Part shown: piece after piece, positions 14,439 through 31,441 of the stretch | Layout: each line of letters begins with the position of its first letter | How positions within the stretch are numbered: the first letter of the stretch is position 1 | From: Nanobdellota archaeon | GTDB taxonomy: Archaea > Nanobdellota > Nanobdellia > Pacearchaeales > GW2011-AR1 | Direction of reading: 5' to 3' | Assembly (NCBI GenBank): GCA_022703705.1 | Contig: JAKLDD010000004.1 | Span: forward strand, 1-42,344 | Length of the DNA: 42,344 bases | The notes under the pieces: model-generated | Told to the model about the DNA's origin: nothing | The model's database searches: none | The model's input: the letters and a program-made list of their open reading frames with translations, nothing else | Translations under genes and position numbers: made by a program

Positions 14439-15245
14439 ATGATAGTTAAAGATGAATTCCTAAGCAGATTAAGAAAGATTTTTGATTTAAATCTATATGA
14501 AGTAAAAGTTTGGACTGCATTGTTATCAAGGGGAACTTCAACAGCAGGAGAATTGAGCAATATTTCAGATGTTCCTCGTTCAAGAACTTATGATATTTTA
14601 GAAAGCCTTGAAAAAAAAGGTTTTATTGTAATGAAATTAGGAAAACCAATAAAATTTGTTGCTTTAAAACCTGAAGAAGTTGTTGAGAGGGTAAAGAAAA
14701 ATCTTGTAAAATATGCTCAAGAAAGAACAAAAAGACTTGAAACATTAAAAGATGATGAGGTTTTGGAAGAATTAAATGGATTATTCACAAAGGGAATAAA
14801 ATTTGTCGAACCAAGTGAATTATCTGGAAGTTTAAAAGGAAGGCAAAATTTGTACAATCATCTAGATATGATGATTAGAGATGCTGAAAAAACAGTCACA
14901 ATTGTTACAACTGCAGAAGGATTGAATAGAAAATTGGAAGCTTTAATGCCTGTTCTTGAAAAATCAAAAAAGAGGGGAGTTAGAATAAGAATTGCTGCAC
15001 CCGTAAATAATAACAATATAAAAGTTGCAAGAGAATTGAAGAAAGTTGCAGAAGTTAGAAATATGGAAAAGATAAAGGCAAGATTTACAATTGTAGATTC
15101 AAATCAAATAATGTTTATGCTTTTGGATGATGAAAAATTCCATCCAAATTATGACATAGGAGTTTGGATTAATACAGAGTTCTTTGCTCAATCACTTGAA
15201 CAAATGTTTGAATTAGCTTGGAAAGAAATGAAGCAGGTTAAGTAA
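14439..15245 (+). CDS. TrmB family transcriptional regulator
   Basis: The 268-residue protein has the TrmB layout: an N-terminal winged helix-turn-helix (about residues 8-75; LYEVKVWTALLSRGTSTAGE then DVPRSRTYDILESLEKKGF), a helical linker (about 75-105), and a C-terminal effector domain resembling a phospholipase-D-like fold (about 120-265). Members bind promoter DNA and sense sugars or other small molecules. No transporter or sugar gene is adjacent, so the target is unknown. A single-gene unit with its own upstream region. Confidence 0.88.
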   Translation: MIVKDEFLSRLRKIFDLNLYEVKVWTALLSRGTSTAGELSNISDVPRSRTYDILESLEKKGFIVMKLGKPIKFVALKPEEVVERVKKNLVKYAQERTKRLETLKDDEVLEELNGLFTKGIKFVEPSELSGSLKGRQNLYNHLDMMIRDAEKTVTIVTTAEGLNRKLEALMPVLEKSKKRGVRIRIAAPVNNNNIKVARELKKVAEVRNMEKIKARFTIVDSNQIMFMLLDDEKFHPNYDIGVWINTEFFAQSLEQMFELAWKEMKQVK

Positions 15246-15340
15246 TTAATTCTTTAAAAACAAAAACCTATAAAAACTAAGAATTATTTTATAGAATATA
15301 TTTTGAAATACTTTTATTAATATATGAAAGGGGGTGAAAA

Positions 15341-15577
15341 ATGGCAAAAAAGAGAAAGGCTGTAATTAAAAAATCTTGTGAGGATCACAATTGTGATTGT
15401 AGCAATGCAATGATTCGTATAGATGCTATGGCATTTATTATGTTTATAGTTACTGTCTGGAGCGCAGTTGGAAATTGGCTTTTAAAAGTTCCATGGTGGG
15501 TATATCTTATAATATGGATATTATTTTGTGGTTCGGCTATTGGAGTAAGAAATAAATGCTGGTGCAATAAAAAGTAA
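15341..15577 (+). CDS. Small membrane protein with Cys/His ends
   Basis: The 78-residue protein has a cluster CEDHNCDC near residues 13-20, two membrane segments (about 29-47 and 51-66), and a second cluster CWCNKK at the end. The two cysteine clusters would lie on the same side of the membrane and could bind metal together. An unusually strong Shine-Dalgarno (GGGGGTGA) lies just before the ATG, in contrast to the leaderless genes around it. Function unknown. Confidence 0.65.
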   Translation: MAKKRKAVIKKSCEDHNCDCSNAMIRIDAMAFIMFIVTVWSAVGNWLLKVPWWVYLIIWILFCGSAIGVRNKCWCNKK

Positions 15578-15581
15578 TTAA

Positions 15582-15608
15582 CTTATTTTTATTTTTTTCA
15601 ATTCTTTT
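15582..15608 (+). terminator. T-rich terminator after the small membrane protein gene
   Basis: A run of T-rich sequence (TTATTTTTATTTTTTTC) starts a few bases after the stop codon at 15577, the usual archaeal termination signal. It is followed by the hairpin repeat cluster. Confidence 0.45.
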
Positions 15609-15609
15609 A

Positions 15610-15786
15610 TATTTTAGTTTTCTTTTACATTGTAGCTTTTCTTTTTCTAAAAGAAAAACCCATTTTCTACCATTGTAGGTTCTTTCTTCTTTGCCATCGT
15701 AGGATTTTTTAAATCCCCGTTTCTAAAGAACCCTCATTTCTTTTTATTCTTTCTACCATTGTAGGTTCTTTTCTAAAGAACCCCAT
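15610..15786 (+). repeat. Cluster of header-plus-hairpin repeat units, one nested
   Basis: This gene-free stretch holds four related units. Each has a header like CTACCATTGTAG followed at once by a stem-loop. Unit 1 (15626-15661) has stem TTTTCTTTT/AAAAGAAAA with a TCT loop. Unit 2 (15667-15733) is split: GGTTCTTT at 15679-15686, and its partner AAAGAACC follows only after unit 3 (15693-15718; header GCCATCGTAG, stem GGATTT/AAATCC, loop TTT). Unit 4 (15753-15784) has stem GGTTCTTT/AAAGAACC with a TCT loop. Stems differ yet stay paired. Further copies lie at 28303, 29212 and 31349. Confidence 0.8.
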
Positions 15787-15859
15787 TTTTCTAATTCTTT
15801 TATATTTTATTTAAAAAATTAACAAAAAAATTTATAAATACAACTCAGATGAAAATCTG

Positions 15860-16192
15860 ATGATTAAAGAAAAAGATAATAAGGCGAATAATTTAATTGT
15901 TAAGGATGAAGGAAAAAAATATTTCAAAAAAGCGTTTATATATGGGAATATTGGTGTAGGAATTGGCATTGTTGATTATATCTTATCCAGTAAATTGGGC
16001 GTTGATTCTATCTTTAAATCTTTTAATGAAATGAATCCCCATGAAGTTATAACTAACTTATACTCTGGATTATCCTCAATTGTTGCATTGAGTGGAGGAG
16101 TTATGTATTGTATTTCATGCTTATTTGAACCGGAAGAAAAAAACTTTTCCAAGAAAGAAGTAAAAGAACTTGAAAAAAAATTAAAGTATTAA
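15860..16192 (+). CDS. Small membrane protein, unknown function
   Basis: The 110-residue protein has a charged N-terminus, two hydrophobic segments (about residues 27-45 and 70-88) and a Lys/Glu-rich tail. No family is recognised. A TTTATAAATA box about 25 bases before the ATG supports the start. Its stop overlaps the end of the convergent dihydrouridine synthase gene by four bases. Confidence 0.6.
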   Translation: MIKEKDNKANNLIVKDEGKKYFKKAFIYGNIGVGIGIVDYILSSKLGVDSIFKSFNEMNPHEVITNLYSGLSSIVALSGGVMYCISCLFEPEEKNFSKKEVKELEKKLKY

Positions 16193-24540: not shown

Positions 24541-24600
24541 AAGTCTTAATTAAAGCATTTCAATAAGTTTTTAAGTTAAGATATTTTGTAATTTTATGAT

Positions 24601-24737
24601 GCGGGTGTGCCGGAGTGGTCAAACGGGCTGGACTTAAGTGTAAGGAACCAAGGTTCCTTGACAATCAACTTCCTTTAATTAGGACTAAGAAATCCAGTAG
24701 CTTAGTGCTTGCGAAGGTTCGAACCCTTTCACCCGCA
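24601..24737 (+). tRNA. tRNA-Leu (anticodon UAA) with 53-base intron
   Basis: Acceptor arms GCGGGTG (24601-24607) and CACCCGC (24730-24736) pair fully, followed by the discriminator A. The anticodon stem is CTGGA (24628-24632) with TCCAG (24693-24697). The loop reads C-T-TAA-G, then an intron of about 53 bases (24639-24691) at the canonical position after base 37. A long variable arm marks a class II tRNA, consistent with Leu, and the T arm GAAGG-TTCGAAC-CCTTT is intact. CCA is not encoded. The intron contains an AAGGAACC/GGTTCCTT stem. A TTTTTAAGTT box lies about 30 bases upstream. Confidence 0.93.
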
Positions 24738-24878
24738 TTCTTAGTTCGAATCGAGCCTGATGGAATTTTGTTAAAAATTCTTGACCGAAGGTTCGAACCC
24801 TTTCACCCGCATAAAAATCTTTTAGGGGGATGAATTAGAAATTTCCAAATTCAAGGGTAAGTTTCTTTTCACCCGCAT
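24712..24878 (+). repeat. Repeated copies of the tRNA-Leu 3' end
   Basis: The last 27 bases of the tRNA region (CGAAGGTTCGAACC plus CTTTCACCCGCAT, 24712-24738) recur exactly at 24786-24812. A shorter copy, TTTCACCCGCAT, lies at 24867-24878. The spacers are 47 and 54 bases. Such copies are what repeated integration and loss of elements at a tRNA 3' end, or local duplication, would leave. The stretch 24738-25034 has no gene. Confidence 0.85.
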
Positions 24879-24885
24879 ATAAAAT

Positions 24886-24956
24886 AAACCCGTTGGTTTC
24901 TTTTAACTTCCTCTAATCACTGAACGACGATTTCTAATTGCCTCCGATGAAATCGT
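24886..24956 (+). ncRNA. Two-hairpin element A, related to the one after SRP RNA
   Basis: Hairpin 1 is AAACC-CGTT-GGTTT (24886-24899). A linker TTTTAACTTCCTCTAATCAC follows. Hairpin 2 is ACGATTTC/GAAATCGT (24927-24934 with 24949-24956) around a 14-base loop TAATTGCCTCCGAT. The same layout and most of the sequence recur at 40958-41036, with a base-pair swap in the stem. It may be an RNA processing or termination element of stable RNA genes; function unknown. Confidence 0.6.
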
Positions 24957-27900: not shown

Positions 27901-28302
27901 ATGGCAGGATTATTAACTCATTTAATTATTTCTTTAGTTGGATTCTTTATTGCTCTTTTGGTATTAAAAAATTGGAAATATGGGATTGCTTTTATTTTTG
28001 GACATCTTGCTCCTGATTTGATAAGTTTTGGAATTGCAGGAATAAAGCAGATGTCTTTAAATCCATCAGTTATAATGGTTAATCCTTGGTTTTATCCTCT
28101 CGCTATGTTTGGACACAATTTTCTCCATTGGATAATATTTGTGGTTATACTATGGGTAATTGCACTGTTTTTATACAATTTTAAGAAATTGTCCAAAAAG
28201 AATTTTGGGATAATAATTTTACTATTGGTTTGCCTAATTATTGGGGTGGCATTACATTTATTATTTGATATTTTGGTGCAGGAAGCAAATTATTGGATTT
28301 AA
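27901..28302 (+). CDS. Small membrane protein resembling YdjM/DUF457 hydrolases
   Basis: The 133-residue protein has four hydrophobic segments. His residues sit at membrane borders (LLTHLIISLV, FGHLAPDLISFG, FGHNFLHWIIF, ALHLLFDILV), the pattern of the YdjM-type membrane-bound metal-dependent hydrolases. It is shorter than typical members. It lies between the two nuclease genes. A CTTTAAAAACC box precedes the ATG. The family call is tentative. Confidence 0.6.
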   Translation: MAGLLTHLIISLVGFFIALLVLKNWKYGIAFIFGHLAPDLISFGIAGIKQMSLNPSVIMVNPWFYPLAMFGHNFLHWIIFVVILWVIALFLYNFKKLSKKNFGIIILLLVCLIIGVALHLLFDILVQEANYWI

Positions 28303-28339
28303 ATGGGGTTCTTTAGAAAAGAACCTACAATGGTAGAAA
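28303..28339 (-). repeat. Hairpin repeat unit, exact inverted copy of unit 4
   Basis: These 37 bases are the exact reverse complement of 15750-15786 and begin directly after the stop codon at 28302. They form GGTTCTTT-TCT-AAAGAACC with the CTACCATTGTAG header, read on the minus strand. In that orientation the unit also lies about 20 bases after the stop of the minus-strand nuclease gene. Confidence 0.9.
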
Positions 28340-28357
28340 AGAGAAGATAAAAGAATT

Positions 28358-28910: not shown

Positions 28911-29213
28911 ATGGTTTCAGAGCAATTAGCAAATGTACTTTATCCTGCGCTTTTAGGAGGGTTGGGGGGAGTAACAAGAGGCATTGTTGGATTGTTGAAA
29001 GCTATTTCCTTAAGAAGAAAAATCTTATGGGGATATTATGCTGTTACTGTGCTTGTTGCTTTAGTGATTGGAATGTTTACCGGGATAATCTTCAATTTTG
29101 ATTATCGACTTTCACTCCTTGCAGGATATGCTGGAACAGACATCCTTGAAGGAATTTACAAAAGCTTTAAAGTTGAAAAAGTTTACATCGGAACAAAAAA
29201 ATTGGGAAAATGA
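28911..29213 (+). CDS. Small membrane protein with strong Shine-Dalgarno
   Basis: The 100-residue protein is Gly-rich at the start (LLGGLGGVTRGIVGLL), has a membrane segment at about 41-62, a further hydrophobic stretch and a Lys-rich end. AGAGGTGAA lies just before the ATG; the same AGAGGT word occurs 18 bases further upstream. A hairpin repeat unit starts at its stop codon. No family is recognised. Confidence 0.6.
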   Translation: MVSEQLANVLYPALLGGLGGVTRGIVGLLKAISLRRKILWGYYAVTVLVALVIGMFTGIIFNFDYRLSLLAGYAGTDILEGIYKSFKVEKVYIGTKKLGK

Positions 29214-29269
29214 AAATGGGTTTTTCTTTTAGAAAAAGAAAAGCTACAATGTAAAAGAAAACTAAAATA
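29212..29269 (-). repeat. Hairpin repeat unit, exact inverted copy of unit 1
   Basis: These 58 bases are the exact reverse complement of 15610-15667, including the TACATTGTAG header and TTTTCTTTT/AAAAGAAAA stem. The copy overlaps the TGA of the preceding gene and ends seven bases before the next ATG. Confidence 0.9.
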
Positions 29270-29276
29270 GAAAAAA

Positions 29277-29744
29277 ATGAAAATAACAGGATACGCTGAA
29301 TATATAGAAGAAGCAAGAAAAAGAGGATTTAGTGATTTAGCAATTAGAAATTCTCTTCTTGAAAAAGGATGGCCATTAAATGAAATTAATTTAGCATTTA
29401 ATTATCTTCAAACCATGGATATCGAAAAAATGAAAGAAGATATAAAAAAACACCCTTCAGAAAAGAATAAGGTAGTTATTTATCTTGACGATGAAATCTT
29501 ATTTATGCTTGAAAAAAGAGCGAAGAAAAATATGCTTACACTTCCACAACAAATTGAAGATGTTTTAAGAAGAAGCACATTAAATCAAAAAGGCAAAAAA
29601 AATACAAAAAGTGAAAAATTAGATGACAATTTGGTCGGGCTTTTTTCAAGAAAAAAACAGGACCAAAAAAGAAGAAAAAAAATAATTCAAAAAAGGAAGA
29701 AAAGAAGAAAATTAGAAGGGCAAAAAGACATAAAAGAAAAATAA
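29277..29744 (+). CDS. Basic protein with UBA-like and ribbon-helix-helix-like parts
   Basis: The 155-residue protein starts with a helical domain resembling UBA-type or similar three-helix folds (YAEYIEEARKRGFSDLAIRN, about 5-24). A segment like a ribbon-helix-helix DNA-binding unit follows (KVVIYLDDEILFMLEKRAKK, about 62-81, then TLPQQIEDVLRR), and then a long Lys/Arg tail (about 98-155). The parts suggest a nucleic-acid-binding protein. The gene begins right after a hairpin repeat. Function is inferred only from these patterns. Confidence 0.6.
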   Translation: MKITGYAEYIEEARKRGFSDLAIRNSLLEKGWPLNEINLAFNYLQTMDIEKMKEDIKKHPSEKNKVVIYLDDEILFMLEKRAKKNMLTLPQQIEDVLRRSTLNQKGKKNTKSEKLDDNLVGLFSRKKQDQKRRKKIIQKRKKRRKLEGQKDIKEK

Positions 29745-31278: not shown

Positions 31279-31348
31279 TTTATTTTTTGTTTTAGTTAAA
31301 TATTTTAGTGGGCATTTTGAGGTTGTTTTGTATTTTTTCTTTTACTTT

Positions 31349-31380
31349 TTACCATTGTAGGTTCTTTCTTAAAGGAACCC
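31349..31380 (+). repeat. Hairpin repeat unit, variant
   Basis: Header TTACCATTGTAG is followed by stem GGTTCTTT/AAGGAACC (31360-31367 with 31372-31379, one T-G pair) and loop CTTA. It belongs to the family at 15610-15786 but is diverged in one stem side and loop. Confidence 0.8.
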
Positions 31381-31441
31381 AACCACCTCAAATAAATAGG
31401 GGATAGGGTATTTATAAATCTTGGGTTTATTATGTAATTAA

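Follow-up and report, generated by a model that had tools for sequence, protein, structure and literature searches.

A family of small hairpin repeats in a Pacearchaeota genome with properties of mobile elements and a place in predicted tRNA introns

The closest described systems come from three settings. In bacteria, GTAG-tagged REPs with RAYT transposases are palindromes of 20-40 bp, some of which are found inside genes, and no archaeal GTAG REP family is described in the main text of the paper that defines this background (Di Nocera et al. 2013, PMC3733652). Also small, palindromic and non-autonomous are MITEs and Rickettsia palindromic elements (RPE), some of which remain open through coding genes. 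In eukaryotes, mobile spliceosomal introns known as introners supply an intron by their own insertion and differ in presence or absence between close relatives. For archaea, the gain of tRNA introns is an old open question, for which a mobile source has been suggested: a 1.8-kb recombinase-coding element is proposed to have brought an intron in its attachment site to a disrupted tRNA gene of Caldiarchaeum (Sugahara et al. 2012, PMC3293823). The same source cites the transposition of tRNA introns in Thermoproteales (Fujishima et al. 2010, as cited in PMC3293823).

The window, that is, the whole stretch of 42,344 nucleotides analyzed here, is one contig (C34) of a 622,739-base (0.62 Mb) Pacearchaeota MAG (G000) that is 87.5% complete. 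It contains seven units, four of them at 15615-15784 (one nested) and the others at 28300 (-), 29213 (-) and 31345 (+). Every unit has three parts: a header whose last bases are GTAG, a stem closed by a short loop (in most cases 3 or 4 bases), and a CCC terminus. Scores are those of covariance model R1; features without a score were located by sequence.

15615-15662, + strand: unit 1, type C, TAGTTTTCTTTTACATTGTAGC header and CCCA end (53.2 bits)
15637-15645 and 15649-15657, + strand: unit 1 stem, TTTTCTTTT and AAAAGAAAA
15667-15734, + strand: unit 2, type A, interrupted, header at 15667-15678
15678-15685 and 15725-15732, + strand: unit 2 arms, GGTTCTTT and AAAGAACC
15690-15719, + strand: unit 3, type D, within unit 2, TTTGCCATCGTAG and CCCG (41.2 bits)
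15702-15707 and 15711-15716, + strand: unit 3 stem, GGATTT and AAATCC
15753-15784, + strand: unit 4, type A, header at 15753-15764 (63.9 bits), stem GGTTCTTT and AAAGAACC with loop TCT
28300-28340, - strand: type A unit directly 3' of the stop codon of the + strand ORF 27901-28302 (64.5 bits)
29213-29259, - strand: type C unit with ORF 28911-29213 on one side and the start codon of ORF 29277 on the other (53.2 bits)
29207-29217, + strand: left direct-repeat copy AAAATGAAAAT flanking the 29213 unit, from flank comparison
29274-29284, + strand: right direct-repeat copy AAAATGAAAAT, which includes the start codon of ORF 29277
31345-31385, + strand: type A unit, intergenic, one header mismatch (44.2 bits)

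All seven units reported in the initial annotation proved to be real. In a header search, CTACCATTGTAG with at most 2 mismatches gave 11 matches against 2.05 expected, a number reached in 0 of 100 shuffles. ACCATTGTAG occurs 17 times in the genome, and its reversed control 0 times. The header carries 0 or 1 mismatches at 15667, 15753, 28325 (-) and 31349, and a variant, TTTTACATTGTAGC, is found in unit 1 (15615-15662) and in the 29213 (-) unit. Four main stem types are observed: GGTTCTTT (A), TTTTCTTTT (C), GGATTT (D) and, outside the window, GTTTCTTTTT (B). A free-standing type D copy, like unit 3, adjoins G000:C9:2256 (L005). The earlier observation that stems differ while each is complementary to its own partner agrees with an alignment of 25 copies, in which 98.4% of stem cells are paired, 4 of 8 pairs have changed on both sides, and the covariation score is 0.282, versus 0.102 when shuffled and at most 0.095 in slid versions. 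From the alignment and pair counts, the GTAG tetranucleotide sits at the foot of a 6-12 bp short-looped stem; on the opposite strand the element reads GGG - hairpin - CTAC NN TGGTAG - AAAAACTA. The repeat AAAATGAAAAT around the 29213 unit corresponds to the start of the next gene. An Rfam search of 15200-16000 gave no match above the gathering score, and no description of these archaeal hairpin repeats was found in a literature search. The region 24581-24956 of the window is another dispersed repeat, which matches many places in G000, G001 and G002.

To support mobility, the initial annotation had looked to a covariance-model search for many copies at variable positions, with empty sites in relatives. 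Model R1 locates 27 copies in G000 and about 165 in 19 of roughly 200 relatives, most of which have none; 14-18 copies are present in each of G174, G175, G081 and G089, and 0 in seven relatives. At E≤1e-5, copies are carried by 18 of the 180 genomes of the order, all 18 in one family. When 84,980 species were searched for an exact 20-base match, the only hits were in Pacearchaeota/Nanoarchaeota MAGs, one contig of a Bdellovibrio MAG and one virus-labelled contig; all genomes compared are MAGs. The Bdellovibrio-MAG contig (L051) has runs of N inside genes beside the unit, and the scaffold is probably chimeric. The virus-labelled contig (L075, IMG/VR viral class) has a type A unit near its end. 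In G032 (L385-L399), the unit heads a repeat of ~118 bases with three hairpins, running from GGG to GATTCCC in about 20 copies; this longer repeat could be a more complete version of the element.

Empty sites were sought by comparing the flanks of sixteen units with 14 near genomes. In orthologous alignments, the L155 and L157 sites are occupied in G174 and empty in G018, the L182 site is occupied in G081 and empty in G082, G083 and G084, and the L174 site, which lies within a gene, is occupied in G081 and empty in G084. The intergenic alignments have diverged, so that exact junctions are blurred in several of them. A further empty site is found at tRNA-Lys: in G000, 15 duplicated tRNA bases and a unit lie behind the promoter region, whereas G002 shares the upstream gene and has a matching promoter region but carries no such duplication or unit. 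In having numerous scattered copies as well as empty sites, the units resemble MITEs, and the suggestion of small mobile stem-loops of REP or MITE type had named the right class. At L174:1350, the unit splits a G081 gene that is intact in G084: the upstream part of the gene stops just 5' of the unit, and a new frame starts at the unit's ATG.

Duplicated target sequence is observed on both sides of many units, exact over 14-19 bp in a dozen cases. Flanking direct repeats score at least 10 in 17 of 113 units, versus 4.4 in a control that gave each unit the right flank of another, with the reservations that a clear duplication is seen in a minority of units only and that the re-dealt control has tRNA sequence common to its members. 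In held-out genomes, 7 units score at least 11, versus 1.4 in the control. The length is not fixed, being 11-19 bp exact in most clear cases and at least 35 bp at L394. The cleanest duplications are 19 bp (L405), 17 bp (L388) and 16 bp (L402); among those of tRNA ends are 19 bp of a tRNA-Ser 3' end (L193) and 15 bp of a tRNA-Lys 5' end (L006). At L146:1534 and L199:1632, the 23 first bases of a GTPase-like gene are duplicated upstream, before the unit. Between the two genera this duplicate differs almost only at synonymous positions, and it opens a short frame whose end coincides with the real start codon, a hint of translational coupling.

The preferred reading, with a probability of roughly 0.85, is that the units are non-autonomous mobile DNA elements of ~45-55 bp, found in one Pacearchaeota family, which insert with target duplication by a putative trans-acting enzyme and persist where they do least harm, including predicted tRNA introns. 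Copy number, empty sites, duplications, nesting, the sense bias and an intron present or absent between sisters are seen directly in the sequence; one enzymatic process behind all insertion classes is inferred. The enzyme would place a unit where the transcript of a gene begins or ends, or close by, often duplicating the target on both sides. Surviving copies would be those beside a gene end, in the loop of another unit, or ahead of a start codon or tRNA that had regained its beginning through the duplication; copies in an anticodon loop are predicted to be removed as bulge-helix-bulge introns by the archaeal tRNA-splicing endonuclease. Because insertion at a start needs the duplication to restore that start, and insertion in an anticodon loop needs splicing out, the concentration of units at gene and tRNA ends may reflect survival rather than targeting. 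This suggests that tolerance through RNA processing shapes where units persist. Duplications of variable length speak against a fixed-stagger transposase. No autonomous long copy was found in any locus examined, nor any cargo between unit halves. The units resemble MITEs and RPE in being small, palindromic and non-autonomous and in staying open, in some cases, through coding genes; they differ from them in lacking long terminal inverted repeats, in their unfixed duplication length and in stems that vary between copies. Where MITEs have terminal inverted repeats that match an autonomous element, only the GGG/CCC ends of the long G032 form were observed.

In anatomy, the units are closest to GTAG-tagged REPs. 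Both have GTAG directly 5' of a short-looped stem, at its foot, stem subfamilies with paired changes, and some copies in genes (PMC3733652). This likeness raises the alternative that the units are such REPs, mobilised in trans through a single-stranded DNA route by a REP-associated Y1 (RAYT, IS200/IS605-type) transposase, with the CTAC...GTAG header as cleavage site and guide. Although Y1 genes are present in the unit-bearing genomes G204, G208 and G210, this alternative is unlikely: no units adjoin those genes, and Y1_Tnp was not found in G000 or six other unit-bearing genomes searched (G001, G002, G018 and those of L047, L050 and L067), all of them incomplete MAGs. Moreover, many units are flanked by 14-19 bp duplications, unlike IS200/IS605 elements, whose transposition is not known to make a target duplication. 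The units also differ from GTAG REPs in their archaeal host, in a longer header, CTAC-CANN-GTAG plus a T-rich lead, and in their strong tRNA association and introns. Since neither a RAYT association nor an absence of duplication was observed, they are not filed as GTAG REPs.

A strong orientation bias was observed when units were scored as RNA from the strand opposite to that of the initial annotation. All 23 of 23 tRNA-linked units lie in the tRNA sense (5 of 6 in held-out genomes), and the downstream gene is on the unit's strand in 47 of 52 cases; this second bias is weaker in held-out genomes (20 of 28), chiefly owing to G032. The tRNA-linked units occupy three kinds of position: introns, 5' leaders that adjoin a duplicated tRNA 5' end, and 3' trailers, where most units begin only a few bases from the end of the tRNA. 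In leader cases, a partial inverse copy of the duplicated target is found 3' of the unit, so that an outer stem forms. A bulge-helix-bulge was also considered for the leader copies; only one bulge fits, and they are not claimed as introns.

If a reverse transcriptase had retrotransposed a small RNA, both the sense bias and duplications of variable length would follow, and insertions are indeed mostly in transcript sense, with duplications from 11 to 19 bp and at least 35 bp at L394. This route is nevertheless improbable: RVT_1 had no match in seven incomplete MAGs searched (G000, which is the richest in copies, G001, G002, G018, G174, G175 and G181), reverse transcriptases are equally frequent in genomes without units, and no poly(A)-like tail is present.

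The sense orientation with tRNAs and downstream genes, the covarying stem and the placement upstream of start codons are also what a conserved structured RNA element under selection, for example a 5' UTR or processing signal, would display, with apparent mobility due to recombination between copies; the same site is even occupied across species (L047/L049/L050; L142/L026; L146/L199). As an explanation of the family this is very improbable, because units are absent from ~90% of the order's relatives, different stem types occur at one orthologous site, units lie within coding genes in different reading frames, and empty sites and target duplications are found. The conserved RNA structure that the initial annotation had offered as its second explanation may thus hold as an added property, in view of the orientation bias and predicted introns, but does not account for the empty sites and duplications. 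At L047, L049 and L050, units closed by an A/T-rich outer stem lie within one coding gene in three species and in different frames, and the gene stays open, as would fit either in-frame insertion or splicing. A peptide-coding role of the unit was rejected, as the open frames through it differ between copies.

The predicted introns are clearest at tRNA-Val(GAC). In G000 (C11:349-496), this gene contains a 77-nt intron that starts with a unit. Its counterpart in the sister G001 is intronless, with 70 of 70 exon bases identical and a related upstream gene, and the gene is also intronless in G002, G175 and G029. In another genus, a 62-nt unit intron is present at the same position of G089 tRNA-Val and none in G003. 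The junction lies between the two halves of the anticodon stem and can be read as a canonical bulge-helix-bulge, TTGA-CG^A ... TCAA-AA^T; in both G000 and G089 the intron is at 37/38, with two 3-nt bulges, a 4-bp helix and an intact exon tRNA. In minimum-energy folds, the unit hairpin forms and the four-base central helix does not as such. Splicing out of the unit intron is inferred, and gain is a simpler reading than loss in the sisters. No flanking duplication was found at the tRNA-Val introns. G018 tRNA-Arg(TCG) has a unit inside an intron that is present in G002 without the unit, and G174 has no intron there. Units thus both enter existing introns and, at tRNA-Val, form most of one that is absent from the sister. 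In G081, tRNA-Ser(GGA) contains a 59-base intron that begins with TGGG, and relatives have unrelated introns there, so that clean creation of an intron by a unit is limited to tRNA-Val.

As with introners, one mobile family is found at intron and non-intron sites, with an intronless orthologue; the difference is that the units lie in tRNA genes and are predicted to be removed by the bulge-helix-bulge endonuclease, not the spliceosome. The units can be described as REP/MITE-like hairpins able to act like archaeal introners. More tentatively, they could be the archaeal counterpart of introners proper, a hairpin transposon that gives rise to introns by inserting in tRNA genes, with the tRNA endonuclease splicing them out, and that possibly moves via RNA or transcription-exposed DNA; such movement would explain the sense bias. 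With the Caldiarchaeum and Thermoproteales cases the units share a mobile element as proposed intron source and a duplicated tRNA 5' fragment upstream of the tRNA; in contrast to the 1.8-kb Caldiarchaeum element, the 50-bp hairpin itself is most of the intron. A mobile family, an intron that is mostly one copy and an intronless sister with identical exons together make the origin of at least one intron directly testable, and would bring very small archaea with reduced genomes into the range of palindromic mobile repeats. That hairpins merely break or misjoin contigs is hardly credible, since, despite units at several contig ends, G001 contigs (C59 and C27) whose breaks coincide exactly with the orthologue of the window cluster and the chimeric look of L051, the same sites are occupied in independent assemblies (L048/L068, L072/L065, L181/L212) and exon identity is complete on both sides at tRNA-Val.

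The initial annotation had regarded unit 3 inside unit 2 as direct evidence of insertion. The nesting is real: unit 3 separates the unit 2 arms (15678-15685 and 15725-15732). By itself, however, it is weak as direct evidence, as the composite of units 2, 3 and 4 recurs at G000:C17:3708-3835 with 95% identity; the window nesting is therefore not a fresh event at its locus, and the composite has spread as a block. At the orthologous site, G001 has a single unit (L146:2776). Better evidence of nesting is a ~40-base insert in the loop of a G082 unit (L212), which the orthologous G081 unit (L181:2039) lacks. Other loop inserts are found in units of L048, L068, L145, L163 and L170. Several unrelated short hairpins, among them GCCCTCCAAGGG..., GTTTCGTTAGAAAC... 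and CGTTCG...CGAACG, also occur as inserts in unit loops (L170, L165, L172; L048, L068; L212, L213), and these may represent further mobile families.
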